A stretch of DNA of 64,000 bases, taken from the NCBI GenBank assembly GCA_943736015.1, contig OX031072.1:10195501-10259500 (forward strand), in the 5' to 3' direction. The notes below the pieces were generated by a model. That model was not told the DNA's origin and made no database searches. It saw only the letters and a list, made by a program, of their open reading frames with translations. Both the position numbers and the translations under genes were made by a program. Below, piece by piece: positions 237 through 61,034 of this stretch. The DNA comes from Tridacna crocea (lineage: Eukaryota; Mollusca; Bivalvia; Cardiida; Cardiidae). Within the stretch, counting starts at the first letter, position 1, and each line of letters opens with the position of its first letter.

Positions 237-773
237 ACGACCAACCCCTCACTTAACATCTGAAATTGCGTCTCTTATTGGATGTATCTGTAGTTTTTAT
301 TTGTTTATAAAGAAAACTATTTTTAGTTGTTTTAATCAGTTATTACAAAGAATAATGACTAACGACCAATCAATCTAGTCAGATCATTTTAACCCTTTCC
401 CAAATGACAAATTTTAGACTCTTCCAAATTGAAAGAGTTTGCAGACGACAATTTCAACTTTCATAACAATGGCAGGAAAGTATCCGAAGGGGCAGAAAAC
501 ACTGTGGGAAAAGGAGAAATTGCTCGTTACGAGCAATTTCTCCTTTTCCCACAGTGTTTTCAAAAGACTTGTACTGCAAACAGGTAAAAACAAGGGCTTG
601 TTTTGGAGGGTTACACGACCAACCCCTCACTTAACATCTGCAATTACGTCTCTTATTGGATGTATCTGTAGTTTTTATTTGTTTATAAAGAAAACTATTT
701 TTAGTTGCTTTAATCAGTTACTACATAAAATTACGACTAACGGCAAATCAATCTAATCAGATCACTTTAACCC
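237..773. repeat. Direct duplication around MITE copy (237-397 and 615-773)
   Basis: About 160 bases starting ACGACCAACCCCTCACTTAA recur after 378 bases with few differences. Both copies end in the flank of a hairpin MITE, so flank and element were duplicated together. Confidence 0.85.
389..613. repeat. Hairpin TTAA MITE, subfamily B
   Basis: The left end is TTAACCCTTTCCC and the palindrome centre is GCTCGTTACGAGC instead of GCTGGTTACCAGC. The right end is GGAGGGTTA, so one TTAA is worn. Confidence 0.85.
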
Positions 774-994
774 TTTACCAGACAATCCCTATTTTTCACA
801 ACTTAAAGGAAGAGGCCTTCTGAAAACATTGTGTGAAAAGGAGAAAATGCTGGTGACCAGCATTTTCTCCTTTTCCCACAATGCTTTCTACTCCTGTAAA
901 GACAACTTTCAATTTTAAGTAACATTTATTTTGTCGCCTGCAAATGCTTTCAATTTGGACAAGTCTAAAATTTTGTCGTTTGGTATAGAGTTAA
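767..994. repeat. Hairpin TTAA MITE, full length
   Basis: TTAA is present at both ends (767 and 991), with left terminus CCCTTTACC and right terminus GGTATAGAG and the central hairpin intact. Confidence 0.9.
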
Positions 995-1047
995 GGTATA
1001 TTGCAATTCAAAACGTGGACTTACCTACATATCACCTATTACGCTTA

Positions 1048-1276
1048 TTAACCCATTACCACACAATCCCTACTTTTGACTCCCCTGAGAAAGAAGCCTT
1101 TTGAAAACACTATGGGAAAAGGAGAAAATGCTGGTAACCAGCATTTTCTCCTTTTCCCACAGTGTTTTCTTTCCTTCCCAAAACAAATTTCTATTCTTTA
1201 GTCACCTTTATTTTGTCGTCTGCAAATGCTTTCATTTTGGACCAGTCTAAAATTTTCTCGTGTGGTAATGAGTTAA
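1048..1276. repeat. Hairpin TTAA MITE, full length
   Basis: TTAA is at 1048 and 1273. The termini are CCCATTACC and GGTAATGAG. It lies 236 bases before the first Ly6 exon. Confidence 0.9.
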
Positions 1277-1512
1277 AGAGCCTCTTTTCTTCGAATCAAA
1301 TCGTTATATTTCAACAAACTGTGAGGCGTGACTTGAAACGTGGTTGGTTAATATGTATTCATAATGCCAAGTATAATGTGGTCTTTGAACGAAACCTTTG
1401 TTCTTTCCTGGTGAGACATTATTATGTGACTTTTGCCTTTCTGATTGATGCATACTGTATGTAAGTTAGAATATGATTCCTATCCTTTAATGTTTTTTCC
1501 ATTCACTTTCAG

Positions 1513-1677
1513 CTGGACTACAATGCTTTCAGTGCTCCGCTACGTCAAACGAATCACCGTGTGTGACTGACGCGTCTGTACTGGTCAACACAAAAAACCA
1601 TGGAGGGCCGTTCAGTAAAAATTGCACGATTGAAAAAGACCAGAGGTTTTGTTTGATAGAAAGTTCCAATAGCAGAG
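1513..1677 (+). CDS. Ly6/LU gene, exon with cysteines 1-5
   Basis: The acceptor is a TTTCAG and the donor is AG|GTATTT. The exon enters with two bases of a split codon and leaves with one (phase 1). It encodes GLQCFQCSATSNESPC onwards to SSNSR. No partner signal-peptide exon with matching phase was found in the 1.5 kb upstream, which is filled with MITE copies. Confidence 0.8.
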
Positions 1678-2863: not shown

Positions 2864-3069
2864 GCTTCAGCATAATACAACTACAAATTACGGCTTTGTT
2901 GGTATTTTTGTGAATTGAACTTGTTGAATCGAGGACAGCCTCAATATGACTAAATTTCCTAATTAAAGGGGAAGTAAAAAAAAAACAATACCAAGGTATT
3001 GACGGAATCTTTCATTACATAAATGACAATCATCGGCAAAAATAAAATCATTCAGTGAGTAATAGCATT

Positions 3070-3150
3070 ACGACGGTTTACTAAAAAAACCTCGTAACTA
3101 CAGACTGAAACAAGCTGTAGTTACGCGGTTTTTGAAGTAAACCGACAATG
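3070..3150. repeat. Small hairpin repeat, related to one at 51.3 kb
   Basis: CCTCGTAACTACAG and CTGTAGTTACGCGG face each other. A similar hairpin with the same flanks lies at 51285-51365. Confidence 0.6.
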
Positions 3151-3277
3151 AAGGGTTAAACCTTAAAGTATCTTTCAAGACAAGTTGTTTTCAAAAAGTG
3201 GTGCTTTTATCGCAAGTAAGATGACACCACTTTATGTTGTAAAGTAATAAAAGATAACTTTACACCAAAAATGCGAA

Positions 3278-3490
3278 ATCCTTTATCACACAATCCCGAG
3301 TCTAAACGAACCCAGGGAAACAGCCTGATGAAACCTTGTTGGTAAAGAAGAAAATGCTGGTAACCAGTATTTTCTTCTTTTCCAACAAGACTTTCTATTC
3401 CTTTTAAAAACAAAATTTAAATAACCACATTCATTTTGTCATCAGCAAAATGATGACATGTGTAAAATCTAGTCGTCTGGTAAAAGATCA
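3278..3490. repeat. Hairpin TTAA MITE, diverged
   Basis: The hairpin is retained with paired changes in both arms (CTTGTTGG and CCAACAAG; AAGAAGAAAA and TTTTCTTCTT). The ends are eroded. Confidence 0.8.
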
Positions 3491-4601: not shown

Positions 4602-4831
4602 TTAACCCATTACCACACAATCCCTACTTTTGACGCCCTTGAGAAAGAAGCCTTTAGAAAATATTGTGGAAAAAGGAGAAAATGCTGGTAACCAGCATTT
4701 TCTCCTTTTTCCACAATGTTTTCTACCCTTCACAAAACTAATTTCAAAATTTTCAGTCACTTTCATTTTGTCGTCTGCAAATGCTTTCAATTTGGACAAG
4801 CCTACAATATTGTCGTTGGGTAATTGGTTAA
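4602..4831. repeat. Hairpin TTAA MITE, full length
   Basis: TTAA is at 4602 and 4828. The arms show a matched extra A/T (GGAAAAAGG paired with CCTTTTTCC). Confidence 0.9.
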
Positions 4832-5233: not shown

Positions 5234-5650
5234 CACGGCGGGGAATCACGTGACACAACAACAACAACAATGACCGTTATTTGAAAAAATTCCCCGACTT
5301 CAGGTAAGAAAATCTTCAATAATTCCAGAGAAGGCGGAAGGACTCCAGGGATTTGCTTGATGTGTTAGATTTGTTAAACAACACCTAATAAAAAAGTTAT
5401 TGACGAGCAAACAAATTTTTTACCCTGGATAATTTGTTTGCTCGTCAATAACTTTTTTTATCAGGTGTTGTTTAAAAAATCTAACACATCAAGCAAATCC
5501 TCGGATACCTTCCGCCTTCTCTGCTTCAAACCAAATTCAAATCGGTCACGTATTAACGGAATTATTGAAGATTTTCTTACCTGAAGTTGGGGATTTTTTT
5601 CAAATAACGGTCATTGTTGTTGTTGTTGTGTCACGTGATTCCCCGCCGTG
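5234..5650. repeat. Long foldback MITE, copy 1, with 5-bp target duplication
   Basis: The termini are CACGGCGGGGAATCACGTG and its mirror, with arms of about 180-210 bases around a spacer reading TTTTTTACCCTGGAT. The flanks carry ACAAT on both sides (5229-5233 and 5651-5655). The left arm lacks 34 bases present in copy 2. Confidence 0.88.
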
Positions 5651-5738: not shown

Positions 5739-5966
5739 TTAACTCATCACCAAACAACAAAATTGTCCGTTTGTCCAAATCGAAAGCAGTTGCAGACGAC
5801 AAAAGAAAAGTGACTGAAAATTTGAAAATTTATTTTGTGAAGGGTAGAAAACATTGTGGAAAAAGGAGAAAATGCTGGTTACCAGCATTTTCTCCTTTTC
5901 CCACAATGATTTCTTAAGGCTTCTTTCTCAGGAGCGTCAAAAGTAGGGATTGTGTGGTAAAAAGTC
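5739..5966. repeat. Hairpin TTAA MITE
   Basis: TTAA is at 5739, the hairpin is intact and the right terminus reads GTGTGGTAAAAAG. The copy lies between the two long foldback elements. Confidence 0.87.
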
Positions 5967-6002
5967 TATTTGTTATATTCCTGTTTCTTTGTTAGCTATT
6001 AA

Positions 6003-6453
6003 CACGGCGGGGAATCACGTGACACAACAACAACAACAATAACCGTTATTTGAAAAAATTCCCCGACTTCAGGTAAGAAAATCTTCAATAATTCCGTTAA
6101 TACATGACCGACTGGAATTTGGTTTGAAGCAGAGAAGGTGGAAGGACTCCAGGGATTTGCTTGATGTGTTAGAGTTTTTAAACAACACCTGATAAAAAAG
6201 TTATTGACGAGCAAACAAATTTTTTACCCTGGATAATTTGTTTGCTCGTCAATAACTTTTTTATCAGGTATTGTTTGAAAAATCTAACACATCAAGCAAA
6301 TCCCCGGAGTCCTTCCGCCTTCTCTGCTTCAAACCAAATTCAAATCGGTCATGTATTAACGGAATTATTGAAGATTTTCTTACCTGAAGTTGGGGAATTT
6401 TTTCAAATAACGGTCATTGTTGTTGTTATTGTGTCACGTGATTCCCCGCCGTG
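6003..6453. repeat. Long foldback MITE, copy 2, with 6-bp target duplication
   Basis: It has the same termini as the copy at 5234 and complete arms of about 210 bases. The flanks are TATTAA at 5997-6002 and 6454-6459. The open frame of about 70 codons seen on each strand is the same arm read twice. Confidence 0.88.
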
Positions 6454-6807
6454 TATTAACTATCAAGAACGGTAGGTATACAACTATACCTAGGACCTAA
6501 ATTATGTCTTTACAATTACACGATATATTTTGAGCAGAAGCAGCTGACGCAACAGGTGACGCAACGCTCCACATCATATCATCACTAGTGATGTTATTCA
6601 CTATGAAAAACTAAAAAAAAAAATACCCGAGAAATCCTAATAATTGACTGATAGGAATATAATAAAACTCCGTATTTATCTAGTATTGAATTACCTATTA
6701 ATCAAAAACAAGTTTGATTGAGACGTCCACGAATAGTTCCGTTGTCAGCCAAGGATAACCAACGTGAAATGAGGATAAACATTATCAAGTTATGCAGGAA
6801 TATATTG

Positions 6808-12714: not shown

Positions 12715-15700
12715 GTATTGATTTTTGTTTCTGAATATTTCTAGAAATTCTTATCAGGGGTTACTCTTAGATTTATTTCATCTGGTAAAATAAATCTCAG
12801 TTACATAATGACAGACCCTCAACTCACTAATAGCGATGCAAAAATTGAATACGAGCAAGATTGGAGCAATGTCTGTTTACATAGTGAGTCGGCGGATAGC
12901 TATGTATAAACGCCTGGCGTTAATTTTTTTTTGGCTTTTTTATTGTTAATAAAGCTTCTGATAGAAGTTTTATAACCATTGAGATAAATGCAAATTCAAA
13001 GGTCCTATAGCTACCTTGAGAAAAAAATGGGGTCATGAAATGCATTGAAAATTTAAAATCATACCATTTGAAAGCATGCAAAATATTGTGAGGATGACAA
13101 TGACATGTACGTGTTTTTGTACGGTTGGTCCAAGTGTTAGTCGCAAGCTGAAAAATTAATTTTCAAAATCAGGTAGAGAGTGCGTAAGATGGAAGGGCGA
13201 ATTTTAATCTAATTTTAGATCTCATTTTTCTGTCAGCGACTAAATATTGACCGGCCGTACAAAAATACATATTGTCATCTTCAAAATGATTCACTTTTAA
13301 ATGTGTATGTGATACAGCTTTTGAGAATTTTAATGGAACGAAACGCTACTGAAGTCATTGGCACATCCATGACTACATATCAGAAATGTTCACTCGGTAA
13401 CAATTTCATTTTTAAAGCAGTTCTTCAAGATCTTTAAGAGGAAAACTAAAAATTGGGTGGCTTTTTTTGTGCTTACAATTTGAGCAAACTTCCAATCATT
13501 TGCTTCAACTCGAAAGTTGTGTAGTTCGTTTTATACCGCGTGAAACAAGCGCTGTCAAAGATTTCAGGCAGTGATTTTGCAACATCATAACGGTAATGAT
13601 GTTTTCACCGCGAAATGAATCACTTATCCGGATTTTATGATTTAGAACACGGACTAAGTAAGACAAAATCTGTTTTGTGAAAGAAATTATATGAAAGATA
13701 TTCAGGGTATCTCAAATTGCAAATCGTTTGAAAATTGCTAATATAGATATTAAAACCCCAATACCTTCGGTGTAGCTGAATGTGCTGGATTTTTGCCTAC
13801 TTTTTGGTACTGATAACAAATGAATGAATAGAAATTTGTGATTGGTCAAAAATACATGTACATGTTTATTCTGAGCGTCCCTGTAGTAAAACATGTACAG
13901 ATGTTTATTCTAAAGGTACATGTCTCATTGCTGGCAAATTTACGCCGTCTACTTTTCATTTTAAAATAATTATGTTAATTTCTGTCCGGTTTTTCTTTGG
14001 AGAATTCTCCATCTTTATGAAGTATTTCTACACAATCGTCTCTTATTGATGAAAGATTTGCTTGACTTTTCCTGTATAAATCAATATAAACAGAGATCGT
14101 GGATCATATTTCAGCTTTTCAATTCTTGATCTCGTAATAACGTAATCCTGATGTCCATGGTGCGATATATGAAACAAAACGAGTGTCGACGCGGATGCGC
14201 AGCACTGCATGTAACACAAGGCATATTTCATCCCTCGAGACACTGATCAATGCGTTCAATGCACGGAATACACAGTACTGTGAACGATGGCTTAAAGATA
14301 TAAGTCATGGTCAGTGATAAGTGGGCTTAATGCATCTGCAAATCTATCAACTGATGTCAGCCTGTGCAGTCCTCGCAGACTTACATTGGCCGAAACTGTT
14401 TGCCATTAGTCAATTTTCTGTATGGTAAACGATATTCTGACTACAGGTCCGGTCATTTGTTAGACGAAATTGGCTCTTATGGATCCATAATTCTATAATG
14501 ACTTGGTTGGGTTAATGGATCAGGAAAATGTATTGATTCCCCTTTTGCCAGAGTATGGCTCATTTATTTTTCTAATACCGTTACAGGTCTTACACACAAG
14601 AATGTCGGCTGCGAGTCCTGCGAGGAAGTTTGTATCACTGGAACACTCTGGAAATGTGCAGAGTGCACTAATGTCAATCTTTGCACGTCTTGTTACTATG
14701 GTGACAGTCACGAAACTAAACACCATTTTAAGAGGATAGATTTTCCAGGGGCTGACCCGTAAATTTTAACTTTAGATAAATTTCTTTTACGTCACACAAT
14801 TAAACAGTCAGTTTTGCTTATGTGCAGTTGATAAGGCACATTGATTATTATGCATACTGCCTTCTATGCCTTCTTTCATGAAACTGCCATAACATATTTC
14901 TATTTCAGTTACAGTATAATTGTACTGCTTTGTAACTCAAATATCATATAGATAATTATATTATAATATAGATTAACCCATTACCACACAATCCCTACTT
15001 TTGACGCCCCTGAGAAAGAAGCCTTTAGAAAACATTGTGGGAAAAGGAGAAAATGCTGGTAACCAGCATTTTCTCCTTTTCCCACAATGTTTTCTACCCT
15101 TCACAAAACAAATTTCAAATTTTCAGTCACTTTTATTTTGTCGTCTGCAAATGCTTTCAATTTGGACCAGTCTAAAATATTGTCGTTTGGTAATGGGTTA
15201 ATGGCCAGGCATGAAAACATTATATCATTGTTTAGTCATGGAGTAAACCAAGGGTTCAAAAGATTTCAGTTATATTTCATTTATGAGTGTAGTATACATG
15301 CTTTGTGAATGGGGAGTTAAATGTGATTGTACATATATGTAGATTCATAATCATATGATGACTTGCTTCGTATTAAGCATCACGTAAATGCATCAAACTC
15401 CCTTTTGCCAAAGCATGACTCGTGCATTTTAATGCAGTGTTGCAGTACCTAAACGGGCAGCAAGTCAAAAATCAAGATCACTCGGTATATTTCCTTCCGC
15501 TGACGTGGTCCGGGGAACAGATTGGGAATATGATAAACAAGATGGTAGGAACTTTTATTATTTCTAACTATTACATTGACATCCTTGGTGTCGAAATGCG
15601 GGTCACTTTTTACTTAGTAGTCCAAAATTAAAGTAATTAACTTTACCTGATTCGCTATATACTTTCCCACTTGCCTGTTTGTCTAAAAAGTGTGTTGAGT

Positions 15701-18700: not shown

Positions 18701-21700
18701 AGGTCAGATCGCAATAACCACTTGCTTGCTCTCTGAATTGACTTAAATGGCAGCTGTATTAGGGGCATTACAATGACTGAAAACATATTTCAAATACAGT
18801 TACAAGCCCAAATATTCTTACACTATCTGAACGCATACGTGTAGATCCGTGCTCAAATGATGACTTTGTGCTGATCAATCTTGTCCTAAATTTTGCCCGT
18901 AAAATTTGGAATTTCCTACCAGGAGTGTAGGATTTTTCGGCAAATATACAATTTTTTCTTTACTCATTACACAAGCTGCACATAGGATTTCTGAGAGATT
19001 TGACAATTCTCATAGGAAAACGAAAAACAACATTATCTAGCATATTTTAACATTTTCCATTTTAAAGAGAACTGTCTGCTTTCTTAACCGACAGGTGAAT
19101 AACAACTTGATATTTAAATGTCATTTGATAACATTTGTAGACACTAGAAGATGAAGCATAACAGAAAAATGTGTACCGATAAATGAACCCATTCATAAAA
19201 AATGACAACAATATTTCGTTCCAAGCAAGCCGAAAAAAAAAAACATTACCATATTTTATAATTACTTACAGATATTACTAACAAATAACTAATTAGTATC
19301 GTGTTGAACTAAACCCAGGCAACCTTGCTTCAGTTTGAGTTATGACCAAAAAACAAAAAGCAAAAAGAAACACCAGAATTGTATGATACCTTTTGAAGCC
19401 TTTATATTATCTTTCATGTGTCTATTTTTTAGAAATGTTATGGGTACAGAAATGTCGTAATTTAAGCAGGAGGGAATAATTTCCCCTTCGCAGTGAATAT
19501 TTTGCTCCTGCCGAAAATCCAGTAAATTGACTAGAGATCGCAAGTTTTAAAAATGGCATTCGTTGACAAAATAATCAGAGGAAATATAATATATGATTCA
19601 TTTCATCGGCTTGTGGTGAATATGGGGAAATATTTGCCTCAAAAGGGAAAGGTCCGCGAAAATAACTCGTGCCTTACGGCACTCGTTATTTTCGCATACT
19701 TTTTCCTTTTTCGGCAAATATTTCCTCATATTAACCACAAGCTGATGAAATAAACTCTATATACATGTATTTACCCAAGTCTTTGAATAAAATCGAGAAT
19801 ATTAATTGGGTCAGAAAACGAACTGGATTTCTTTAGCCAATTCGATATTTCTCATGCTCTTCCGATTATAAGGTTGATGGCGAAGTTCATCGGATATACA
19901 GTAATGGCTACCAGCACAAAACCAAATTGAAAGCATTTGCAAACAACAATTTTAAAGTGGCTCAAATGGTGCAAATTTGCTTTGATAGGGTTGAAAACTT
20001 GGTGTGAAAAGGAGAAAATGATGGTTACCATCATTTTCTCCTTTTCCCACAATGTTTTCAAAAGGCTTTTTTTCTCAGGGGTGTTAAAAGTCGTCATTCT
20101 GTGGTAATGGATTAAAGCATCTGTCTGAAATACGAATAATCAAGAACATTAACGTGTAATACAGCAATCTAGACAAACTATTTCTTAAATGTATAAATTG
20201 TAACATGTTCTTTTGCCACAAATATTTCATCTTTAAACCTGATGCAAACCAAAAGAGGTCGGACTTCATCTGCAGAAAGTAATTTATTTAAATGCATTAA
20301 CGTAGAGTACGTTCCTTTACGTTATTAAGGTGCCAGAGTTCAGGAAGGGCGATGTTGTGAAGACTGTGCAGTCAAAAGAACTTTTAAAGCGCTTGCTACG
20401 TAATCATGGTGGTTGGGATGATGAGATTGTTAAAGTGAGTTTGCTGATACATTTGTTAAGCTCTACCTGTCTTCAGCCATATTTAGTTGCTTTTTAAATA
20501 ATCGTGGGGACCTTGAAAAATTGGCTTACCAGAATTCTAATGTAGTATGACTTTTTTGTAATTTACGACAAATGAGGTGAAATTGTAGCCTTTGGTTAAT
20601 GGAGAACAGAATTTCTCTTGAGAACTACAAGATAATGATAAGGTTTTTCATTATTGTTCTGAATTAAGTTTGAGGTTTTTTGCAAACCAGTAAAACTACA
20701 GAGTAAGCTATGACACGTTTTGTATGATTTTTAAATTCAGATTTTTCTCCTTTTACGAAGGAACAGAATTCGGAATATTGTCATTCGTGACAGATTCTTT
20801 TTGACTTTAGTAAAAGTATTTGTTTTAGACGATTGTGCATCCTGCATCTCAAGTATATTTCCTGCACAAAACAGGAACACGTATTATTATTATTTCTTCT
20901 TCTTTTTATGATAATGCCCGTGTTTGTATACTGCACTGATCAGGTAATTGGCAAAGCTGGAGTAGTCACTGTTATCGATGAAGATGGCGATGTTTGCGTG
21001 ACATTCACCGATACCGCATATGTTTTTCATCCCAACTGTCTAGTACATGCTGACGGAGAACCAGTTGATTCACAACTTGTAACAGCGATAATGGAAGAAG
21101 ATGGTGAAAACATTTGAAGCATGCTTTGGCAAAAGGGGACTTAATGCATCTGCGAAAAAAAATTATCTAGAGTAGCCTGTGCATTTCTGACCTGATCTGA
21201 AATTGTTTGCCATTAGTCTATTTTTTGTATGTCGAAGGACCCGTGTACCTCATGATTCAGACGGTTGTTATAGAAGATGTACCTTATGGATTCTTGATCT
21301 TGTGATGACTTGCATAATATGGCCTGCAACACGCGAAAAAGGGCATTCGGACATTTGTGTAAAGTGTCATCTCGGATCTGCCTGCGCAGTCCACGCAGGC
21401 TAATCCGAGACGACACTTTACGTTTTTAAGCAATTTTCTGTTTTGCGCAAGTCTACCGCAGCACAAAATCTAATGTAGTCGTAAAGTGCCGTCTAGGATT
21501 TAACAATAACTATAACGTTTTTATATCATGGTGTGGGGTTGGACTTAACAAATAACTATGACGTTTTTATATCATGGTGTGGAGTTGGATTGTTTTTTTT
21601 AACCTTTTATCAAGTCATCCGCATTTTAACGACTGTTAGAAAGAAGGCATTGGAAACCATACCGGGAAAAGAAGGAAACAGTGGTAACTTTTCCCAAATC

Positions 21701-24700: not shown

Positions 24701-27700
24701 CAGGGATGAAGGTCACTATGGAAGTTATTTTTAAGGAAAAATAGGATAAAAGCTCAGCAGATATAATGGGACATGGAGAAATTGCTCAATTGTAGGGATG
24801 TCTCCTTTTTCTAAAATAATTTTGAAAGTGCTTTACTTCCACAGCTTTCAATTTCCTGCTTTTGATTGCTCGTTTTGGTGTGTGATGCCGTGTCAACAGT
24901 ATTTTGATTTTTTCACTGTGAAAATTCACATATTCATTTTTTCGAAATTTGATTTATTATCCATGACGAAAACACAGGCACAGTAGGATGTGCGCGAACA
25001 TTTGTGATATACGCCGTTTACAACTTCATTGGAACAAAAAAAAAACCACTCATATCTGTGCTAGGCAAAGAACTGTGACCAGCATATTTTAGTTATTCAT
25101 TGGTTCTTTGCTGTATACAGGTTGAATCTAAACCACTTCTGTGCTTGTAGTGATGAATTTGTAGATAATCAGCTTATTCACGTACTTATTATTAATTGAT
25201 CTGCATCAAGATATTTTATCCTAACTTTTCTACAGAGATAAAATAATTGTGGCCCAAGTTCTGATAGACAAGGGAGCTGATGGTAAATGTCAAAATATAC
25301 ATGGTCGTACTGCTCTACATATAGCCGCTGTAAAGAATATGGCCGTCATCGTCAAGGCACTTTTGGACGGAAACTGCGATCCAAACATCCAGGTATGAGG
25401 AAGAAATTTGTCACAATTATATTGGGATGTTTTCTCCAACAGTTCTACGCATTAGACTTATTCTAGGTTATAAAACTAGTTGTTTGAATGGTCAAGATAG
25501 AATGTGACTGCAAATTAAACGTTTAGCCTAGAAGTTAAAAATTGAAGTATAAGCTAGATATCTCGTATCTCGTGCCAGAAATATGTCGCCATACCATGGC
25601 AATGATGTTCAAAGCCACAGCAATGTATACATGCATGTTGGTAAAACCCATGATACACATGAAACAGTCAGCTGCTGTTGTAGCATGATTAACTCTTTAC
25701 CACACGAGAAAATTTTAGACTGGTCCAAATTGAAAGCATTTGCAAACGACAAAATAAAAGTGACTAAAAAATAGAAATTTGTTCTGGGAAGGGTAGAAAA
25801 CACTGTGGGAAAAGGAGAAAATGCTGGTTACCAGCATTTTCTCCTTTTCCCATAGTGTTTTCAAAAGGCTTCTTTCTCAGGGGCGTCAAAAGTAGGGATT
25901 GTGTGGTAATGGGTTAAAGTATTGTTTAATTGGCATAAAATAGTGTTTAATCGAATTATCAGTCACGGTCCGTAGACCTGTATTGGTGTTAAAGAAATAA
26001 TAACAAATATTTCATTTTTTGCACATAGGACGAGGCTGGTGACACAGCTTTGCATGATGCCATTAGCGGAACAAAAGATGAAACCGCAGCACTGCTGATA
26101 GCATCCCCTAAAGTAAATCTGAAATTGCAAAATAAAAAGATGCTAAACCCGCTCGCATTTGCTTGTATGAAAGGCCATCATTTGTAAGGATAATTTGATT
26201 ATTACTTTCATTATATTTTGCTTGAGCAATTACTGGAGGATTCTTAAACTTCTTTAGAAGCAATGATACAGATTTTTTTCTATGCAATGAAATAATAGTA
26301 AGTCTAGTCTGTCGAGTGCAATGTAATGCAGTATAGTTCTATCATATCGAAAAGTTTACATTTTGTTTTCAATTAGACTATGTGCTGTATGAGGTTCTTT
26401 GTCTATGTTTTTTTTTTTCTATATTCAGTTTATTTTGTAAATGACCAAAGACATGTGCCTTGCCGGTCATGGTATGAAAAGTTCTATAACTCATCTTGTT
26501 TCTATGACGGTAATGTTTCGAGTATATAAAATCAACATTACAATACATTACGTAGTATAGAATGAGTTATTGTAAATATCGTATATATTAGAATAGTTTG
26601 GATTGTAATATTTGTAAGCCGTACTTCAGTGTTGTCTTTTATTACTCTTTGTAAGAATTAAGCTTTACCAAGGTGACAAAATAATTACTTTTCTAGTGTT
26701 TTATTGTAAAGATTATCATATAAAGCTATACAATTTAACTCTAGGGGAAATAGTTGAAGGACCAAAATTTTTTCCAACGTTGTGGAAATAATGAGGGAAA
26801 AGCAGCTTAGAACCGCTTTTTTCACACAGTGACTCCTGCATGAGATTTCAAAATAATTTTAGATTGACTATTTCTAGCACACGTTCTAACATTTTTTTTT
26901 TCTTTAACAGTGCACTTGACAAGATGCTTACCAAAGACATGAGCCTTGCGAACAGCAGAGCTTCCCACGGCCATCTTCCCTTGCATATTGCAGCAATTAA
27001 CAATAATCTAAACGAGGCTAGGACTTTAATGATCAAAGTTAGTGCACATAATTTTTTAACCTTCTGCATAACAGTCGGTATTTGTTTTGTTGATCAAGAT
27101 GAAACTGTTGAGAAAATGCAGTCTGACCTGCACTACCTTACGAGATATTCGGCCGACCTTTTTCCCCAAAATCACAAAAATGCGGCCTGTTGAAATAATA
27201 GAAAATACGAAATGCCTCCGTATCATTTTATTGTTTAGCAATTCGAGGAATGATCTCATTCTATTCCCTTGAGTGGTATCAATAACATATTTGGCATTGC
27301 GGGGATGATGTTCCACAAAATAATTGATCATTCTGCAAGGAATCCCCCTCTGTTCAACAGTTATGTACTGCGATGTTTCTTAATAGGGTACATGTAACTC
27401 TGATTCTATTTCTTTTTGAAGGGCTAGTCACATTGGTTTAGGACCCCTAGTCTTAAAAAGGCAAAAAGAAATGATCTGTCACCGTAATATGTCTGTCATT
27501 TTACAAAGAATGCAGTTGTCATCATGAAGAAATAGTTTGGATGTCGTTTGTCATTTATAGAAAAGAATTTGCTGATATTTCTTTGACACTTTCAGGCACG
27601 TGCTGACGTTGATGCAAGAAATGATACTGGAGTTACCCCTTTACACCTGGCTTGTAGTGAAGCCTTTTTTGACATGGTCGAACTTTTACTGACTCAAGGT

Positions 27701-30700: not shown

Positions 30701-33700
30701 TGATCTTAGTTTAAACATTTATTTTTAATTTATTCAATATAATAACATCATTCATTTACAACAACATATTGCGAAAAGGATTGAAACGAAAGCATCAAAG
30801 CTTATATAGTTCCTCTCCCTAAAGAAGTCTGATTTTTTTCCTGATACTTTCTTTCCGATTACCCTGTATAAATGTATCAATGTATACCATTACGTAACAC
30901 CAATCAAGATACCCGATAGGCCTCTTATCTAATCTCATCATCGGAGCATTCCGACACAATGCAAACGATCAGGGAAAAAAAATACGGTAGTTGCTTTAAA
31001 AAAGTGTAAAAAGAGCTAAAAATGTATTTTCTAAATGACTGAAAACTACGCCATATTAAATAACAATAAATAAGCTTTCTGACTTCCCTGAAGATAATTT
31101 TGATTTTCCAACACAATGTGCAGGCTGATTTATGTTTACCGTGTGCTCAAAAAAACCACTGACTTCTTCTAAAAAATGACGAAATTATTTTAAACAGAAC
31201 TGACCTATTGGACATAAAGGTTAAAAAGTACAATTTGTATTTGGTTGTTTTGTTTATGATAGATCAGACGATACCCGTGTGGTCTGATCTACCACCACAC
31301 TTTCCCCAGCCTAATATACATGCACGTACATGTATTTGTGACGATGCTATGCAAAACAATTACAATAAAATGCCGTCTGCTGACTATGTAATAGCTCTAT
31401 GCTACAGATTGGAGATAAATGTTTTCACAAACATTATAACAAGAGAAGCCTCTTTATAATATCCTTAACTTTGTGGGCAGCTATTCAGAAATATATCCTA
31501 CCGAAGTATTTTTACTATTGTACTATTTTTGTTGATAAATCAATAAAAATATCAGAGACTGAATTCAAAATTATGATGAAAAAATCAGAGATAAAATTCC
31601 AAAGATGCAGTAAACATATGTGCATGCTGTTACATTTCGAGCGTTCGTGTTGCGCTCCTTCCCCGGCTTTAGTCTCATCATAAGAAACTTGTACTGCGGA
31701 TATTTTTTTTTTTAACTCTTCAGGAACTGGCAATGTATGACTGTCCCAATATTTAAAGCAGTTGTAGACAACACAATAAATATGGCTCAAATTATTAAGG
31801 CATGACAACATTGCTTGAAAAAGAGCAAATGCTAGTCAAAAGCATTTCTATAGCTGACCATAATTTTAATTTTTCAAATGCGCGCTTTCGGTAAAATTTG
31901 AGGCAGATCAAATTGCAAGACCTGAAAGGAAAACAAATCCTACAAGTTTTGGTACCCCAGTAATTTACAACCCCAGATATCCCGCAGAGTTGTTTTCCAA
32001 TAAATTGAAACCCTCTACACTCGAAGCGCGAAATTTGGGTTATAAGTACAAAGGGTTTGCAGAGATCGCCAGTCAATATATCATTCCGTACGTGATCGAT
32101 TTCACGGCCAAAAGGGATCAAACTCTCATAATTTAATTGGCTTACATAGCGGTCAAATAACAGTTACCGGGTTTGATTTGCATGATAAAGTTGGCCATGG
32201 TATTTTCCGAGATTTGCAGAATTTTGTCGAGTTTTCTCGTGGTATTTTACCAAGTAATAATATAAAATTTTATACAGGTTTTGGCGGTGTTTGGTCTTGG
32301 GAGTCGTGCTGAAGACAGCGAAAGAATAAAGATAGCAAACTTACTGGTTCAACATGGCGCGAAAACTGATGTCGTGAACAAAAATGGCAAAACACCAATA
32401 TCGGTGTGCATTAATGATCAGATCAAGGAGGCTGTTATAACTTTTGCTAAAAACCAGTATGTATTATGTAAGACATGGATGGGTAGGTGGATGGGTTGAT
32501 AGGTGGATGGGTGGATTAATGACGCTATGACATCAGACTTTTGAAAACATTGTTGGAAAAAGGAGAAAATGCTGGTATTCAAATATGAAATGTTGTTGCA
32601 TATGCCTTGAATTTTTGATACACAAGTCTTAAATGTTGTCGTCTTGTAAAGAGTTATGAGTATAAATCTTAGGGGGATTTTATGATAATTTCCTCATTCT
32701 AATTATTTGATGATTTTAAACTCTTTCATCGACAAAAAGTTAAGCTTGGTCTCTTTCGACAATTATACGCATGCAATCCATTGAAATTGAGAAAGGTTTT
32801 TATTGTATAGGCTTGGCTAAATAAGCGAGTAGCATAGATCAAAGATATAGACCTATGCTGTCAGCAAATGTCACTGTTTTCGCCTTTGGCATCGTGGAAT
32901 CTCGACGACTGAATTAAGATATTGCTAATCATACAAGTACCTGAAGGCAGCGTAAAGTGCCTTTCAAATGAAAGAAAGGCTTTATTATATAAAAGTAAAT
33001 TTTCTGGATCCAAAACATGCGTTTCAATCGAGTAAAATAACAAAAAACAGAACAAAAAATCCGTATCTACACACTGTGAAATACGGTCCCAAATATGGTA
33101 CGATGACGTATCTTTGCACGGACTTAGCAAATATTGAGCTGTGGTTTGATTGGTCAAAATGTTACGCTATATAATATGAATCCATCATAAAGCACAGGGA
33201 TACTATCGCCCATAATATGAATTGTCTCATTTTGTCTGCCGTTTTCGAATAAAACGTAATAACTGTCCTGATGCTTGGATTTACTTCTGACCGCGGTCTC
33301 GCAGGATATCAAATTCTCTCTGACCGCGGTCTCGCAGGATATCAAATTCTCTCTGACCGCGGTCTCGCAGGATACCAAATTCTCTCATCATGTTGGAATA
33401 AAATACAAGCACCAGGAAAGTTACTAGAACATGATAATCTTTATACATGTACATAACCCTTTGCCAAACGACAAATTTTAGACTCTTCCAAACTGAAAGA
33501 GTTTGTAGACAACAATTTTAAATTTGATGAAAATGGCAGAAAGTTCTCATAAAGGGTAGAAAACAGTGTGGGAAAAGGAGAAATTGCTCGTTACGAGTAA
33601 TTTCTCCTTTTCCCACAGTGTTTTCAAAACTGCAGACACTTATACTGCAGACATGTAAAAACCAGGGCTTGTTTGGGAAAGGGTTAAACGAAAGAGACAC

Positions 33701-40810: not shown

Positions 40811-41050
40811 TTAACCCTCTACCCCATAAGGTATTTCTATCGTATCTCTAATTGATCCTAAATAACAGCAAAGATGAAGCCGTTTCTTATGTGTATATGA
40901 CACCTTTTGATAGCATAGAAAACATTGTGACAAAAGGTGAAATTGCTCGTCACTTGCTCGTCACGAGCAATTTCACCATTTGCCACAATGTTTTCCAAAG
41001 GCTCCTACAAGCAATGCATAGAAATAAGCATCTATGGAGTAAAGGGTTAA
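40811..41050. repeat. Hairpin TTAA MITE, subfamily C
   Basis: TTAA is at 40811 and 41047. The apex is enlarged by a duplicated GCTCGTCACTT unit and both arms carry GGTGAAATT/AATTTCACC. Confidence 0.88.
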
Positions 41051-41672: not shown

Positions 41673-41888
41673 TTACTCTTTACCATACAATTTAGACCCT
41701 GAGAATAGAGTCTTTAGAAAACATTTTGGGAAAAGGAGAAATGCTGGTTACCAGCATTTTGTCCTTTTTCCACAATATTTTCTACCCTATAAAATACAAA
41801 TTCTTTCACAGGAGCTATGTTTAAATTGTGGTCTGCAAGTGCGCCCATTTTGGACCAGTCAAAAATTTTGTCTTTGGTAAAGAGTTAA
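41673..41888. repeat. Hairpin TTAA MITE, sharing its right TTAA
   Basis: The copy runs from CTCTTTACCATACAA to TTTGGTAAAGAG. Its terminal TTAA (41885-41888) is also the first TTAA of the next copy. Confidence 0.88.
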
Positions 41889-42114
41889 CCCTTTACCAAA
41901 CAACCCCTCGTTTTTACGACCCTGAAATAGAAGGCTTTGTAAACATGGTGGGAAAAGGAGAAAATGCTGGTTACCAGCATTTTCTCCTTTTCTCACAATG
42001 TTTTCTACCTTTTCCAAAACAAATTTCAATTTTTGAGTCACATTAATTTTGTCATCTGCAATTGCATCCAATTTGGACTAGTCTAAAAATATGTTGTTTG
42101 GTAAAGAGATAAAC
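41885..42114. repeat. Hairpin TTAA MITE, back to back with previous copy
   Basis: TTAACCCTTTACCAAACAAC at the left and TTTGGTAAAGAGATAAA at the right, with a perfect hairpin. Confidence 0.9.
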
Positions 42115-52900: not shown

Positions 52901-55900
52901 AAATTTCATGGATGGATAGATCTCATGAAGGGGGAGTGCAGTGCACAGGAATCATAACTCTTGCTCACTTGATTTTTGAGTTATTGCCCTTTGTCGTTTT
53001 TTATACTTGAATTTGGTCCGGTGCATGCCCCAGCTTAACAACTAGGGGTAAGACGAGCGTATCTTGCGACAATTTGCCGCTCATGTTCAACTCTTACTTT
53101 TGTACTCAACCATTCTGCATTCTCTGACAAAGACCTGTTTGGTGGCAAGGAGCTGGTGGGGGTATGATCACGTTTAGTGATAGCTCTAGTTAACCTTGCT
53201 GGAAAAGGAGTGTTTTCTCCTTTTCCCACAGTGATTCTAAAAGGCATGTTTCTAGGGGTCATTGAAACGGGTTAAAGGGTTAAAACAGTGTAGGAAAGAA
53301 AGTTGATCATATGTGCATGTATATACAGGAATTTGACATTCTATAACCAAAATAAATGATAAAATATGAAAAGAAAATCTCCCCTGTATGTGTTTATATT
53401 ATATAGGGGAGATTTTTTTTTCATGTTTTATCATTAATTTTGGTTATAGAATGTCAAATTCCCGTGATATATACCACTCATGGTAGGCTTAAAAGGCCTC
53501 CATCAATTAAGATATTAAGGACTAGTCCTTTTGCAATATATCGCAGAAATTGGATTTCTTGTGATGGCATGAATGTTATATTTTCCAGGTATTCACGGGA
53601 AACAGAGACAAACCCAAACCATTTCGTATTTGATGAATTTGAACGACACTTTGCAGAAATAGCTGCTTTTCATTTGGACAGGTAGGTGGTGTAGCATTGC
53701 GAGTTATTGATAAAGGTGAAATACATTTAAAGGTGGCCCTTCAGATTTTGGGACGAAAAATATACATAAATGCAAAAAGAATCATCCCTATACTCCCAAA
53801 GCCTTTTAATTTGCGTTCATAAAACTACTGTAGTCGAATCCAAAACTATAATTTACAATGGTCAATAGCTCAGATAATAGAGGGAATGTCGTTATACTCA
53901 CTGTATATGAAGTTTGAAGTTACTACATGTAGCTTCTGTAGTTCACAACTTCATAAGTTATGCCTCAGATACAAATCCAAAGTTAAAATGTATATTTTAC
54001 AAAGGGCAATAGCTCTAAATATTGTGGGAACAGAATTATAGTTTTGTACAGTGCACAAACTGTTAATGGAGTCTATTTGTATAATGAAGTTTAAAGGCAC
54101 TAGCTTAATTATAATACCTGGGGAGTTATTCCTCAGACAAAAATCCAAAGTTTGAATTTATAAAAGGAAATAACTCTGAAATAGTGGGAATAGAGTTATG
54201 GTTCTTGCACAGTGCACTCTGATTTAATGTTTACTAATTGTATATGAAGTTTGAAGTTACAAGCTTTTGTACTTGGTAAGTTATGCCCTCTAGAGATAAA
54301 AATCAAAGGACAATAACTTAAAAAATAGATGGAACAGAGTAATATTTCTTGTATACTGCACTTCTGCTTAATATGAGCTCTCTTTGTGTGAATTTTAAAG
54401 TGACTAGCTTTTCATTATAAAGTATAGATTTTACACTTTGGAAGTAATGCCCTGAATAAAATCCAAAGTTATAAATTTAAAGGGGCTGTATAACACTAAA
54501 TATACTGATGAGAGAGTATTGGTTCTTGTATGCTGCAGGGTCATTAAAAGTCAGGATTGTGTGGTAAAGACTTAAATGATGACTTGCTTGATACAATACA
54601 GCTCATGCCACTTTTGCCAAAGCAGTGTTTAACTCTGTACCAAACAACAAAATTTTGGACTAGTCCAAATTGAAAGCATTTTCAGACGACAATATAAATG
54701 TGACTGAAAAATTTAGATTTGATTTGGGAATGGTAAAAAAAAACATTGTGGGAAAAGGAGAAAATGCTGGTTACCAGCATTTCCTCATTTTCCCCACAAT
54801 GTTTTCAAAGGCTCGTTTTCTCAGGGTCGTTGAAAGTTGGGATTGTGTGGTAAAGAGTTGAATCTTTATGTTGATAAACCATATTATTAAATATGTTCAT
54901 GGTATAGGATGTTGCAGTCCCATAAATGTATGAAGTAACCTGCTGCCCTTCAAATGACAATTATGAACTGAATCTGACCTTGCAAGATTAAGGGGAAACT
55001 ATGGCTGAACATAGAGGTTACATGGTTACAAGAAATAATTTCTAAAAGATCAGTCAACAAGATCAATGGAAAAGTCAATTTGCTGTTGTAGTATTCTTCT
55101 TTGACTCTACCCAAGGTGACCAGACTTAACCCTTTCCCAAACAAGCCCTGATTTTTACGTGTCTGCCGTAAAACTCTTTTGAAAACACTGTGGGAAAAAG
55201 AGAAATTGCGCGTAACAAGCAATTTCTCCTTTTCCCACAGTGTTTTCTACCCTTTTTGAGAACTTTCTGCCATTTTCTCAAAATCAAAAATTGTTGTCTG
55301 CAAACTCTTTTGTTTTGGAAGAGTCCAAAATTTGTCGTTTGGGAAAGGGTTAAGACTTATCAGTATTGAAAGCACTTGCAGACGACAATGGAAAGTTGCT
55401 ATAATAATTGAATTTGTTTTTTAAAGGGTGGAAAACATTATGAAGATAGAAGAAATGTTCTCCTATTTCAACTATGTTCTTTTGTAGGATGTAAAAGGCA
55501 ATGGATTATTTCATTAAGGGTTACAAAAGCAAAGAAGAGTGAACATTATTTTTTATTGACAAATTATTGGAAAAAAAATTGGAATGGCTGACTGAATCTC
55601 TTTATTGCACATGTAGTGTATCTACAGGGTCAAGCCAAGCAGAAAATGTTATACAGTATCTGTGCATTTAAAAAGTGATAGATTGTGTAAGAGATCCTAG
55701 AAAATGAACTAAGTCTGAAATTGTTTTGTGATTTAATAATGAAAGTAAGGATCACCAGTGGTTGCCTCCTTTTCCTTGTTATTTTGTATAATTGTTGAAA
55801 AACTGAAATTTTAAATTATATGAACAGTTATACATGTAGGCCCATTTTTTCCCCAAGACTAGGGATTAATCCAAATCATCACTGAATACTTCAACCTGGA

Positions 55901-58900: not shown

Positions 58901-60203
58901 CCTCAGGTTTCTTTTGTATGTCTCTTTTCTCTTCTATATCAATAGGAAACCGAGACAGACACAATATCCACCATTTTACCAAATTTGGAGAGGCATCTAA
59001 TCCTATTCTTTATGATAATGGACGGGGGTAGGTTTGCTGGTTTTCTTCCCCTTCTTTTTGTGAAATGACGTCTTATACATCCAAATAGTCCTGTATTTTA
59101 AGGAACCCATAGAAAAGGGCCTTTGTAAACCAAAGGCCAGCAAGCTTATATGTCAAGGCCCTTCATCCCTTGTGCAGACTGTGTGTTCCTGCTTTAACTC
59201 TTTACCAAGCGACAAAATTTTAAACTGGTCCAAATCGAAAGCATTAATTTTTGCAGACAACAAAATAACAGTGACTGAAAATTTGACATTTGTTTTGAGA
59301 AGAGTAGGAAACATTGTGGGAAAAGGAGAAAATGCTGTTACCAGCATTTTCTCCTTTTCCCACAATGTTTTCTAAAGGCTTCTTTTTCAGGGTCGTCAAA
59401 AGTAGGGATTGTGTGGTAATGGGTGAACTTTTGTTTCAAACATCTTCTCTGAAACTTCTTTACAGTTTCAACCATACTTCACAGAAATGTTCTTGCCATG
59501 TGCAGTCTTCCCGGCCCGACTTGGCTTGAAACTTTTTGCAGATTGTGAATACTCTGCTTGTCAAAGAATAATTTTACTTCATGATTAAACAAGTGTCTGT
59601 CAAAAAGGATCCATACTGTGAGGTATATTGTTTGGCATGACACATTTCAAAGATGCATAAACCTTTTCCCAAACAGGCCCTGGTTTTTACATGTCAGCAG
59701 TGAAAGTCTTTTGAAAACACTGTGGAAAAAGGAGAAATTGCTCGTAACGAGCAATTTCTCCTTTTCCCAGTGTTTTCTACCATTTTGAAAATGTTCTTTC
59801 ACTTTCTTCTCCAAATCTAAAATTGTCATCTGCAAACTCATTTGTCGTTTCGGAAAAGGATAAATACCTTTTTCCCTAAGCATTGCATATGGTTGAAATT
59901 TCTATTTTCCTTTGCAGATTTGGCAGAAGTGACTATGACTATCACTCTATATTAAGCCCACTCAGACAATGCTGTCAAATCAAGAAATCCACATTATTAA
60001 AGCTTGTCAAACTCTACAGGGGCCCAGAAAAACTTAGTGACCTACTTAATGCCTCATTACAACATGACCCCGTGACCCCAGTGCTTCTTCCAAAACATCT
60101 GAGAGCTCTAGACAGAAGAGTTGTGAAAATATTGAAGGCAGTGGCTAAGTGTCTTTTACAAGAAAACCGTCCCCTGTATGAGGTGATCTGCAACCATATT
60201 TAA
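46646..60203 (+). CDS. FAM20C: FAM20C-like secretory-pathway (Golgi) kinase, 9 exons
   Basis: Exons 46646-46974, 47419-47549, 48969-49047, 53589-53681, 56893-57002, 57528-57696, 58408-58535, 58946-59027 and 59918-60203 join with matching phases into 468 residues. The start follows a GCCGCC context and is preferred to an in-frame ATG at 46592. Basic residues (IRRR) then a hydrophobic segment (about 11-29) form a type II signal anchor. The kinase core has SELK and [19 protein letters not shown] with Glu198 (Gln in the pseudokinase FAM20A), the catalytic Asp350 in GNRDRH, and the metal-binding Asp370 in YDNGRGFG. The eight cysteines of the family are present: four in [10 protein letters not shown]...FC, one in NYC, the QCC pair and one in AKC. 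NGRGFG favours the FAM20A/C clade over FAM20B. FAM20C phosphorylates Ser-x-Glu sites of secreted proteins, including biomineralisation proteins, so a shell-matrix role is an attractive inference. The stop codon lies in the TTAA of a MITE. Confidence 0.88.
47185..47376. repeat. Hairpin TTAA MITE, right end lost, before FAM20 exon 2
   Basis: TTAACCCTTTTACC at left, perfect hairpin, then the copy breaks off after GTCGTCTGCAACTGC, about 40 bases from the exon. Confidence 0.87.
47419..47549 (+). CDS. FAM20C: FAM20C-like exon 2: start of lumenal kinase region
   Basis: It encodes [20 protein letters not shown] then [17 protein letters not shown], matching the FAM20C stretch '[20 protein letters not shown]...LLHDLSSQRITSV'. 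A right-truncated MITE ends about 40 bases before its acceptor. Confidence 0.87.
48810..48900. repeat. Dispersed repeat with GATC-type hairpin, second copy
   Basis: GTGGATCCAAGATCAGGC ... TTGATCTACACTGCCCGC ... GGTACTTGGGTCGC, relative of 15935-16022. It ends about 70 bases before FAM20 exon 3. Confidence 0.55.
48969..49047 (+). CDS. FAM20C: FAM20C-like exon 3: N-lobe ATP-binding strands
   Basis: This short exon encodes [20 protein letters not shown] then TNVKPM and part of Arg. It aligns with FAM20C '[20 protein letters not shown]' followed by KPMK. Phases 1 in and 2 out both fit the neighbours. The donor is CG|GTGAGT. Confidence 0.86.
49228..50673. repeat. Large inverted repeat in FAM20 intron 3, arms about 288 bases
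   Basis: The arm 49228-49517 is mirrored by 50388-50673 with very high identity (e.g. TGAGCCGCGGACACCATGTG outer, GCCGAGTTTCGGACAAAATC inner). The spacer is about 870 bases. Each arm holds an open frame with [20 protein letters not shown]; the two translations differ at only one of about 55 residues. Confidence 0.9.
49675..49765. repeat. Left part of hairpin TTAA MITE
   Basis: TTAACCCATTACCACGCAAT then GAAAAACATTGTC, after which it stops. Confidence 0.7.
51176..51428. repeat. Foldback element in FAM20 intron 3
   Basis: CATAGGCACCTGGTTTCCGC and TTCAAGTTTCACAAC are mirrored by GTGAAACTTAAAGTC and GGAAACCAGATGCCTATG. Inside lies the small CGTAACTACAG hairpin also found near 3.1 kb. Confidence 0.82.
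51660..53030. repeat. Bivalve-style tandem array, about 155-base units
   Basis: It opens with the hairpin TACCCCCCAAAACTCTG/TTTGGGGGGTA and a GGTC/CGTC simple run (51708-51757). Then six to seven units follow with ATATCTCCAAAACTATACTA, AGTGCAGTGCACAGGAATCA and TTATTGCCCTTTGTTG. Confidence 0.9.
53190..53282. repeat. Hairpin TTAA MITE fragment with apex deleted
   Basis: GGAAAAGGAGTGTTTTCTCC brings the arms together without the usual apex; the right end GGTTAAAGG is present. Confidence 0.72.
53329..53461. repeat. AT-rich foldback element
   Basis: GAATTTGACATTCTATAACC is perfectly mirrored at the right end, with ATCTCCCC/GGGGAGAT near the centre. It ends about 130 bases before FAM20 exon 4. Confidence 0.9.
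53589..53681 (+). CDS. FAM20C: FAM20C-like exon 4: conserved helix with key Glu
   Basis: It encodes [18 protein letters not shown] and then [13 protein letters not shown]. Retention of Glu in FERH argues for an active kinase. A 4.5 kb intron rich in repeats precedes it. Confidence 0.9.
53860..54510. repeat. Degenerate tandem array, about 150-base units
   Basis: Units recur with CAATAGCTCTAAATA or GAAATAACTCTGAAATA, CAGTGCAC and TGAAGTTTGAAGTTAC. The style resembles the array at 63.1-63.9 kb. Confidence 0.75.
54536..54575. repeat. Right-end fragment of hairpin TTAA MITE
   Basis: GCAGGGTCATTAAAAGTCAG then GTGTGGTAAAGACTTAA. Confidence 0.75.
54629..54862. repeat. Hairpin TTAA MITE, full length
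   Basis: TTAACTCTGTACCAAACAAC to GTGTGGTAAAGAGTTGAA; the right TTAA is mutated. Confidence 0.9.
55126..55353. repeat. Hairpin TTAA MITE, subfamily B, full length
   Basis: TTAA is at 55126 and 55350. The termini are CCCTTTCCCAAACAAG and TCGTTTGGGAAAGGG. Confidence 0.92.
55355..55530. repeat. Worn hairpin TTAA MITE next to previous copy
   Basis: ATTGAAAGCACTTGCAGACG, GGGTGGAAAACATTATG and ATTTCATTAAGGGTTA remain. Confidence 0.65.
55850..56000. repeat. Dispersed SINE-like repeat, 5' part
   Basis: TTGAAACTTTTTGCG, TGTCAATTTTCTGCA, ATGATTCAGTCGATTGTGAG. A tail fragment of the same family is near 56560-56625. Confidence 0.65.
56893..57002 (+). CDS. FAM20C: FAM20C-like exon 5
   Basis: It encodes [20 protein letters not shown] then [16 protein letters not shown], the family 'RILDFRRVPPVAGRMVN...FFISPA' region. 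One N-glycosylation sequon (NLT) is present. Confidence 0.9.
57528..57696 (+). CDS. FAM20C: FAM20C-like exon 6: four-cysteine segment
   Basis: It encodes [20 protein letters not shown] followed by [16 protein letters not shown], with the four cysteines that form two disulfides in FAM20 kinases. The rest ([21 protein letters not shown]) corresponds to the loop 'RKTWRNPWRRSYHKR'. Confidence 0.9.
58408..58535 (+). CDS. FAM20C: FAM20C-like exon 7
   Basis: It encodes [20 protein letters not shown] then [18 protein letters not shown], matching 'KAEWEVDPDYCEEVKQ...ILDVMDMTIFDFLMG'. It exits in phase 1 at GTATGT. Confidence 0.9.
58573..58660. repeat. Left half of hairpin TTAA MITE, broken at apex
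   Basis: TTAACCCTTTTCCAAAC to AAAAGGCTGGT, then an unrelated SINE-like sequence. Confidence 0.82.
58661..58760. repeat. SINE-like repeat with AACCAACCAACC tail
   Basis: GAAAGCCAGGAAACACATG, ATGATATGACCTTAGCTG, AGGTGGCGTTTAAAACTC and a CAACCAACC tail, a layout I recognise from bivalve SINEs. Confidence 0.7.
58770..58839. repeat. 70-base palindrome in FAM20 intron 7
   Basis: GTGAAAGTAACAGAACTTCT then GATTGGCTAAACC is mirrored by GGTTTAGCCAATC, GAAGTTC and TTTACTTTCAC. Confidence 0.92.
58946..59027 (+). CDS. FAM20C: FAM20C-like exon 8: catalytic loop
   Basis: It encodes [20 protein letters not shown] then ILYDNGRG. It holds the catalytic Asp (in RDRH) and the metal-binding Asp (in YDNG). It exits in phase 2 with a GTAGGT donor in a G run. 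Confidence 0.92.
59194..59427. repeat. Hairpin TTAA MITE, full length
   Basis: TTAACTCTTTACCAAGCGAC to GTGTGGTAATGGGTGAA; hairpin near perfect. It lies in FAM20 intron 8. Confidence 0.92.
59435..59605. repeat. Dispersed SINE-like repeat, worn
   Basis: GCCATGTGCAGTCTTCC, GGCTTGAAACTTTTTGC, TACTTCATGATTAAAC. Confidence 0.6.
59658..59866. repeat. Hairpin TTAA MITE, subfamily B
   Basis: AAACCTTTTCCCAAACAGG, centre GCTCGTAACGAGC, right CGTTTCGGAAAAGGATAAA. Confidence 0.88.
59918..60203 (+). CDS. FAM20C: FAM20C-like exon 9: C-lobe, apparent terminal exon
   Basis: It encodes [20 protein letters not shown] through [20 protein letters not shown] and a final helix ending [18 protein letters not shown], then TAA. 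Known FAM20 proteins end 15-25 residues after the last cysteine, so this end is plausible. The TAA at 60201-60203 lies within the TTAA that starts a MITE. A splice at GAG|GTGATC (60181) to a further exon is the alternative. Confidence 0.82.
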
Positions 60204-60345
60204 CTATCTACCACACAAACCTGAGTTTTAACAACCCTGTAGGAGAAGGCTTTTGAAAGCATTGTGGGAAAAGGAGAAAATGTTGGTAATCAGCATTTTC
60301 TCCTTTTCCCACAATGTTTTCTCTCCAATCATACAACTTAAGTAC
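60200..60345. repeat. Hairpin TTAA MITE overlapping the FAM20 stop codon
   Basis: It begins TTAACTATCTACCACACAAA at the last codon of FAM20 exon 9 and has a perfect hairpin. The right half is shortened and ends around ACAACTTAAG. Confidence 0.88.
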
Positions 60346-60439
60346 ATGTGTATGTTTGTAGGACTTTTGAAATTATCATTAACAATCTTTGTTGGTTTTT
60401 CCAGTCACATTTGTTATCAGCAAAAGTGCCACATTTCAT

Positions 60440-60510
60440 CATTTCAAATCTCCTTTTCCCACTGTTTTCAAAAGGCTTCTTCCACAGGGTCAGACAAAGT
60501 TGTATTACAA
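60440..60510. repeat. Right hairpin arm of TTAA MITE
   Basis: CTCCTTTTCCCACTGTTTTC, AAAAGGCTTCTTCCACAGGG. Confidence 0.65.
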
Positions 60511-60797
60511 TGTACAATTCACTGGCATAGTTTTAGACATTTTCTCACAAAAAGTCGGACACTTGATGTATCTAATAGAGTAACTTGAACAAGCATGAAA
60601 ATTTGAAGCTATTTTATCTCCAGCACCAGGATTACAATTTACATGGAATTCTATAACAATTAATCACAGATTCTTCTTTTATCATTAATTTATATACGTA
60701 TATTTCACATGTTCTTACTAAAAACTTGTTAAAATGACTTTGAAATCATCACTGTAAAATACCTGTACAATTCAGTTAGTATCAACAATTTACAAAT

Positions 60798-61034
60798 TAT
60801 TTACCAAACAGCAGAAGTTTGGTCCCAGTCAATTTGAATGCATTTGTAGGAGACAAAATAACTGGCGTAAGTAATGATTTCTGTTTTGATAGGATAGAAA
60901 ACATCGTGGGGGTAGAAACCATTGTAGGTAAAGAGAAAATGCTGTTAACAGCATTTTCTCTTTTTCCACAAGGGTTTCACAATCCTTCTTCTTTAGCATT
61001 TGGTAAAAATCAGGATCCTGTGGTGAAGGTTTAA
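60798..61034. repeat. Hairpin TTAA MITE
   Basis: TTATTTACCAAACAGCAG at left, apex AATGCTGTTAACAGCATT, right GTGGTGAAGGTTTAA. Confidence 0.85.

Follow-up and report, generated by a model that had tools for sequence, protein, structure and literature searches.

The two arms of a 67-bp palindrome, which lies inside a short and highly repeated transposable element, co-vary, and they do so in register. For the most part, this co-variation most likely goes back to founder lineages with a constrained palindrome, of which a few are large and many are probably small. We analyzed the element in a window of 64,000 nucleotides (C17:10195501-10259500 of a 1.05-Gb assembly) and in a sample outside this window, i.e., 30 ten-kilobase stretches (L001-L030) from C1-C17, which amount to about 0.03% of the genome.

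The repeat is a TTAA-ended element of about 229 bp with an internal, near-perfect palindrome of two 33-bp arms and one central base, GAAAACATTGTGGGAAAAGGAGAAAATGCTGGT-A-ACC..., in which the central A is unpaired. Its termini read TTAACCCTTTACC... on the left and ...GGTAAAGAGTTAA on the right. When the TIRs were compared, TTAACCCTTTACCACACAAT versus TTAACTCTTTACCAAACGAC, 16 of the first 26 bases were identical, where the outermost two and one bases, respectively, had been appended manually to the model consensus. TTAA occurred at most nine bases from both ends in 68 of 95 full-length copies (left end 77, right end 85, raw counts). TTAA is a hallmark of piggyBac, whose TIRs adjoin it and begin with CCC or alike. 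Judged by its TTAA ends, TIRs, short length and copy number, we class the element as a predicted non-autonomous piggyBac-type MITE. The left TIR also resembled the right arm of the palindrome: this comparison, the best of four, scored 10, and shuffled sequences scored 5.9 on average, with 6 of 500 reaching 10. The TIR-like right arm suggests that the palindrome may hold putative inverted internal transposase-binding sites.

We dropped the idea that the palindrome is a nested element with TA target sites, as several stem-bearing fragments carry outer flank columns too. Truncated copies had seemed to stop at the palindrome centre, pointing to breakage there; columns 80-94, however, hold 14 of 190 break points, with 13.6 expected, and this idea was rejected as well. 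A palindromic MITE that gives hairpin RNAs is known from human MADE1 and the miR-548 genes, where MADE1 is the palindrome itself and has TA target sites. Our element shares with MADE1 a near-perfect palindrome of similar length and many copies, but it has TTAA ends and carries the palindrome in its interior. MITEs of the piggyBac type are likewise short, with TTAA ends, TIRs and many copies; the mPok MITEs of Daphnia Pokey (PMC4912750) are an example. What sets the present element apart is its internal 67-bp near-perfect palindrome, which varies less than the ends when distant copies are compared. A scan of the window against Rfam gave no family at the gathering score. Viral and GTDB genome contigs, from which records of the element's own genome were possibly excluded, held no exact inner-stem match, and a literature search found no paper naming this MITE and no match to two stem words of 20-21 letters.

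A profile search found 67 element matches in the window, covering 10,649 of its 64,000 bases, and 272 in the sample, covering 44,669 of 300,000 bases (14.9%, about one seventh). The element was present in 28 of the 30 sampled stretches. With about 15% of 300 kb stemming from one MITE family, it constitutes a heavy load. A pattern search for the intact inner stem (31 bases) yielded 191,599 sites genome-wide and none for the reversed control; the sample contained 48 intact inner stems, compared with 66 predicted from the genome count, and six intact full stems. By extrapolation, the genome holds near a million element pieces. Even spacing as in tandem arrays was seen in L015:718-9046 (six matches, about 1.6 kb apart) and L017:813-8379 (five matches, about 1.85 kb apart). 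Window positions 46139-46539 show an apparent insertion of element into element, i.e., a left half, a complete element, and the right part of the first without its right arm.

Table 1. Element copies in the window, with their palindromes and paired changes (examples are those of the initial annotation)
Copy	Position	Strand	Palindrome	Remarks
Best-preserved full element, subfamily A	14973..15201	+	15028-15094	perfect 33-bp arms
Subfamily B element	389..608	-	495-561	perfect arms; pairs 8, 26, 31 changed on both arms; example 1 (505-560), founder mark
Diverged element	3277..3485	+	3329-3395	both-arm changes at pairs 7, 12, 20; example 3 (3330-3390)
Subfamily A element	4602..4831	+	4657-4723	G>A on both arms at pair 14; example 2 (4670-4720)
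Subfamily A element	5739..5961	-	5847-5913	pair 14 altered on a single arm only
Subfamily A element	19916..20115	-	19993-20059	C>A on both arms at pair 29; example 4 (20030)
Subfamily A2 element	25688..25917	-	25796-25862	T>C on both arms at pair 8, single-arm change at pair 10
Subfamily B element	33454..33685	-	33559-33625	
Subfamily C element	40902..41047	-	40918-40995	11-base tandem duplication at hairpin tip; example 5 (40940-40975), founder mark
Subfamily A element, centre base T not A	41885..42112	+		
Subfamily B element	55126..55353	+	55181-55247	
Diverged element	60800..61031	-	60915-60978	G>A on both arms at pair 19; example 6 (60940-60965)
Element	61968..62195	+	62023-62089	T>A on both arms at pair 8

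The initial annotation had described copies that depart from the consensus on one arm and often carry the paired change on the other, quoting six motif pairs. All twelve words are present at, or a few bases off, the places it named (500/548, 4668/4704, 3335/3382, 20018/20028, 40936/40969 and 60931/60954). Against the overall consensus, the 42 window copies in which 24 or more of the 33 pairs were lettered had 36 complementary doubles and 20 other doubles, including one G-T; single-arm changes numbered 118 on the left and 92 on the right. A column shuffle predicted 10.8±3.0 complementary doubles. Because this shuffle ignores copy age, and because the overall consensus mixes subfamilies, we replaced it by a null of swaps that keeps both row (copy) and column totals, and scored changes against the nearest of four stem types.

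The four main stem types are A, A2 (pair 8), B (pairs 8, 26, 31) and C (pairs 14, 21, 26, 31), all defined as fully paired. B and C stems recur with flanks of their own. By eye, an unpaired change is seen near pair 13 in many C copies and at pair 10 in some A2 copies. Many copies have pair 14 altered on a single arm. From the 339 matches in window and sample, we dropped 126 in which fewer than 28 pairs were lettered, as well as nine near-duplicates (in L013, L015 and L017). The 204 copies kept had 60 complementary and 60 other doubles, 500 left-only and 465 right-only changes; the swap null gave 43.4±5.8 complementary doubles, and 7 of 1000 runs reached 60. The excess lay in the younger copies (at most ten changes, n=166) with 33 complementary doubles versus 15.5±3.5 (0 of 1000 runs), whereas the 38 older copies showed none (27 versus 28.4 expected). 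When the pairing was slid to 16 other offsets in the same 166 copies, 2-16 doubles were found compared with 33 at the true register. Complementary transversions numbered 12 in register and 0-8 at slides 1 to 6. A neutral simulation with independent decay, as the initial annotation had proposed, produced 14.4±3.8 doubles, and none of 300 runs reached the observed 33. Bootstrapping whole loci put the excess at 22.9 (95% range 10.7-37.3). Co-variation beyond chance was hence borne out, whereas "often" was too strong a word, as the 579 unpaired changes (311 left, 268 right) in these 166 copies far exceed the 33 paired ones. Among the copies without any unpaired stem change, 2 of 13 already carried paired changes, which speaks for founder marks.

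Genome-wide counts were taken at two pairs. For G>A at pair 22, there are 191,599 intact sites, 5,175 one-sided changes and 198 sites changed on both arms, where simple independence predicts at most about 35. The two ordered classes of the off-register double, i.e., pair 22 on one arm and pair 20 on the other, together have 285 sites, or about 142 per class; age mixture can therefore explain most of the ratio of 198 to 35. G>A on both arms at pair 20, however, occurs at 2,526 sites, about 18 times the off-register class and 13-fold the count at pair 22. Provided that rates factorise, the two in-register counts have a geometric mean five times as high as the off-register class, a factor that rests on pair 20. 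One-sided changes in 131 sampled copies were few, 11 at pair 20 and 18 at pair 22; from these small numbers about 233 both-arm sites are expected at pair 22 (198 seen) and about 87 at pair 20 (2,526 seen). Measured by sample frequencies, the both-arm count at pair 22 thus does not exceed what the off-register control leads one to expect, which makes a general templated process less convincing, while pair 20 shows a very large excess. The unevenness between the two pairs points to founder clades across the genome. The both-to-one ratio at pair 22 does not separate the readings: it was 0.038 in intact inner stems (198/5175) and the same in intact full stems (22/~558, i.e., 279 one-sided sites doubled under assumed arm symmetry), whereas a pure founder reading predicts a rise in the fully intact copies if these are younger.

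The initial annotation had allowed that paired changes might simply mark a few founder subfamilies. This applies to two of its six examples, those at 505-560 (B) and 40940-40975 (C). For the other four, the four nearest sampled flank relatives lacked the paired change, although sampling some 0.03% of the genome is not enough to class a change as private. Its proposal that arms are homogenised found no support for every inserted copy, given the lack of excess in the 38 older copies and the 13-fold uneven pair counts. A paired change is hence probably borne mainly by its lineage and not by per-copy repair.

Its other proposal, a selected structure, gained ground at the level of active source elements. 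Between copies with more than 25% flank difference, stem divergence amounts to 0.45-0.51 of that in the flanks, and at these distances the stem is also less different than the 40 terminal bases; in the ten closest copy pairs the ratio of stem to flank divergence was 0.81. Homogenising the arms would leave the rate of divergence from the consensus undiminished; the spreading elements therefore probably have a constrained stem.

The unpaired central base offers a view of the mutational event itself. Of 145 young A and A2 copies, oriented by their flanks, 23 have T in place of the central A, compared with A>T at 46 of 2892 (1.6%) other stem A sites (p=1e-14); six of the 145 have G. Flank identity was 0.61-0.89 for the 23 T-centre copies. 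A few of them are flank relatives (L011, L015, L017, L022); overall, T-centre copies were no closer in their flanks (median 0.356 versus 0.307 for all copies). Within subfamily A, the T share rose with the class of unpaired changes (0/8, 2/15, 3/22, 8/36, 5/21, 7/27; trend p=0.045 with the oldest class excluded) and went down to 4/35 in the most decayed class. No T centre was found among 16 young A2 copies, and the centre of sampled subfamily C copies is mostly G. Paired changes were not commoner in T-centre than in A-centre copies (0.34 versus 0.33). Among 66 A-majority columns, two flank columns exceed the T share of the centre (0.295 and 0.252 versus 0.159), so that a standing polymorphism at the centre is also possible. 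Given how far A>T at the centre exceeds that at the remaining stem A positions, a hairpin-templated event is probable. With a one-base spacer, inversion, mutational hot spot and standing polymorphism look alike, and the data suggest template-switch inversion as the most natural reading among them.

Such events have been described in other systems. In yeast quasi-palindromes, as outlined in PMC8604942, template switching homogenised the arms and inverted the spacer, and cases in RNA stems presented in PMC8794818 had both arms altered together. Arms change together there and here, and the spacer may be inverted here as in yeast. The cases outlined in these two papers followed single loci on trees; in contrast, we deal with about 190,000 intact inner copies, in which most paired changes were seemingly inherited by spread.

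Our explanation as a whole combines a palindrome constrained at its source, paired changes spread by founders, decay after insertion, and template switching as origin, and we see about an even chance that it is correct in full. Elements that spread would need the palindrome, which may serve as an inverted pair of copies of the transposase-binding sequence at the termini. Source lineages would keep it paired, and each would spread its own paired change as a founder mark, with A2, B, C and probably the pair-20 form as large lineages beside probably many small ones. Once inserted, a copy would lose its sequence one base at a time, as dead elements ordinarily do. The paired changes themselves would probably be made by hairpin template switching in replication; we favor this route since the unpaired central base turns to its complement far above the other stem A sites.

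Alternatively, inserted copies might be homogenised continuously, with a fold-back strand copying one arm and so pairing up or erasing single-arm mutations, and founders playing a minor part. The register-specific excess in younger copies fits this, as do the flanks of copies that share a paired change: 11 of 12 carrier pairs were unremarkable in flank distance (quantiles 0.29-0.83; first 200 kb and window), the remaining one (pair 8 T>A, 55 columns) being within the closest 3%. Moreover, the copy at L016:7816-7938 shows no unpaired change but paired ones at pairs 6 and 8, and a copy with neither of these lies 0.018 away in flank distance. The centre T share climbing over the first six decay classes and the yeast and RNA-stem precedents, as far as outlined in PMC8604942 and PMC8794818, also speak for it. 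We nevertheless consider it unlikely, given the old copies without excess, the strongly uneven genome-wide counts with pair 22 little above the off-register level, and T-centre copies that are not richer in paired changes; nor would homogenisation alone halve stem divergence relative to the flanks. A little less probable still is pure selection on source elements by classical compensatory change, i.e., two ordinary successive mutations with no templated step. It would account for the slow stem divergence and for the dominance of G>A, which in copies with at most seven unpaired changes makes up 18 of 31 paired versus 131 of 421 single changes, as two independent mutations would give. It fails to explain, however, why A>T is overrepresented at the unpaired central base, and complementary transversions are in excess in register as well.

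We regard as very improbable that chance and bookkeeping produced the pattern, with age mixture, mutational hot spots (e.g., G>A at the edges of A runs) and hidden subfamilies inflating the doubles. Off-register doubles are indeed common, with about 142 per class versus about 35 by independence if pair 20 mutates like pair 22; the many single-arm changes at pair 14 and the old copies that match chance point in the same direction. The null keeping copy ages and column rates and the slid pairings, which keep relatedness, both stayed below the observed number, though, and the paired sites at pair 20 outnumber their off-register class about 18-fold. As an account of the excess as such, chance is thus largely refuted.

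How stems stay paired is an old question, i.e., by two lucky mutations or by one templated event, and some 190,000 intact inner copies in one genome make it a counting problem. The counts so far tell that founders must be separated first, with the central-base flip suggested as a second, cleaner reporter. A bolder reading takes the nearly one million pieces as a reporter with the same 33-bp hairpin throughout, in which template switching during germline replication flips the centre and pairs the arms in place. We find this unlikely; if true, one assembly would suffice to measure how often, over what tract length and in which direction templates are switched in an animal.

The window contains further inverted repeats at 5326-5523, 19589-19762, 34327-34430 and 53325-53465, and a much larger one at 6002-6454 with 220-nt arms, which are 95% complementary, and a 13-nt spacer. 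Ten open reading frames were scanned against Pfam. Matches above the cut-off were found at 16101-34081 and 59880-60203 to MIB_HERC2, RING finger and Fam20C, and the mind-bomb SH3 repeat matched just under the cut-off in the same regions. A three-finger fold gave a weak match below the cut-off at 2531-2863. The exon-like matches in the window are to a mind-bomb-like ligase and a Fam20C kinase.
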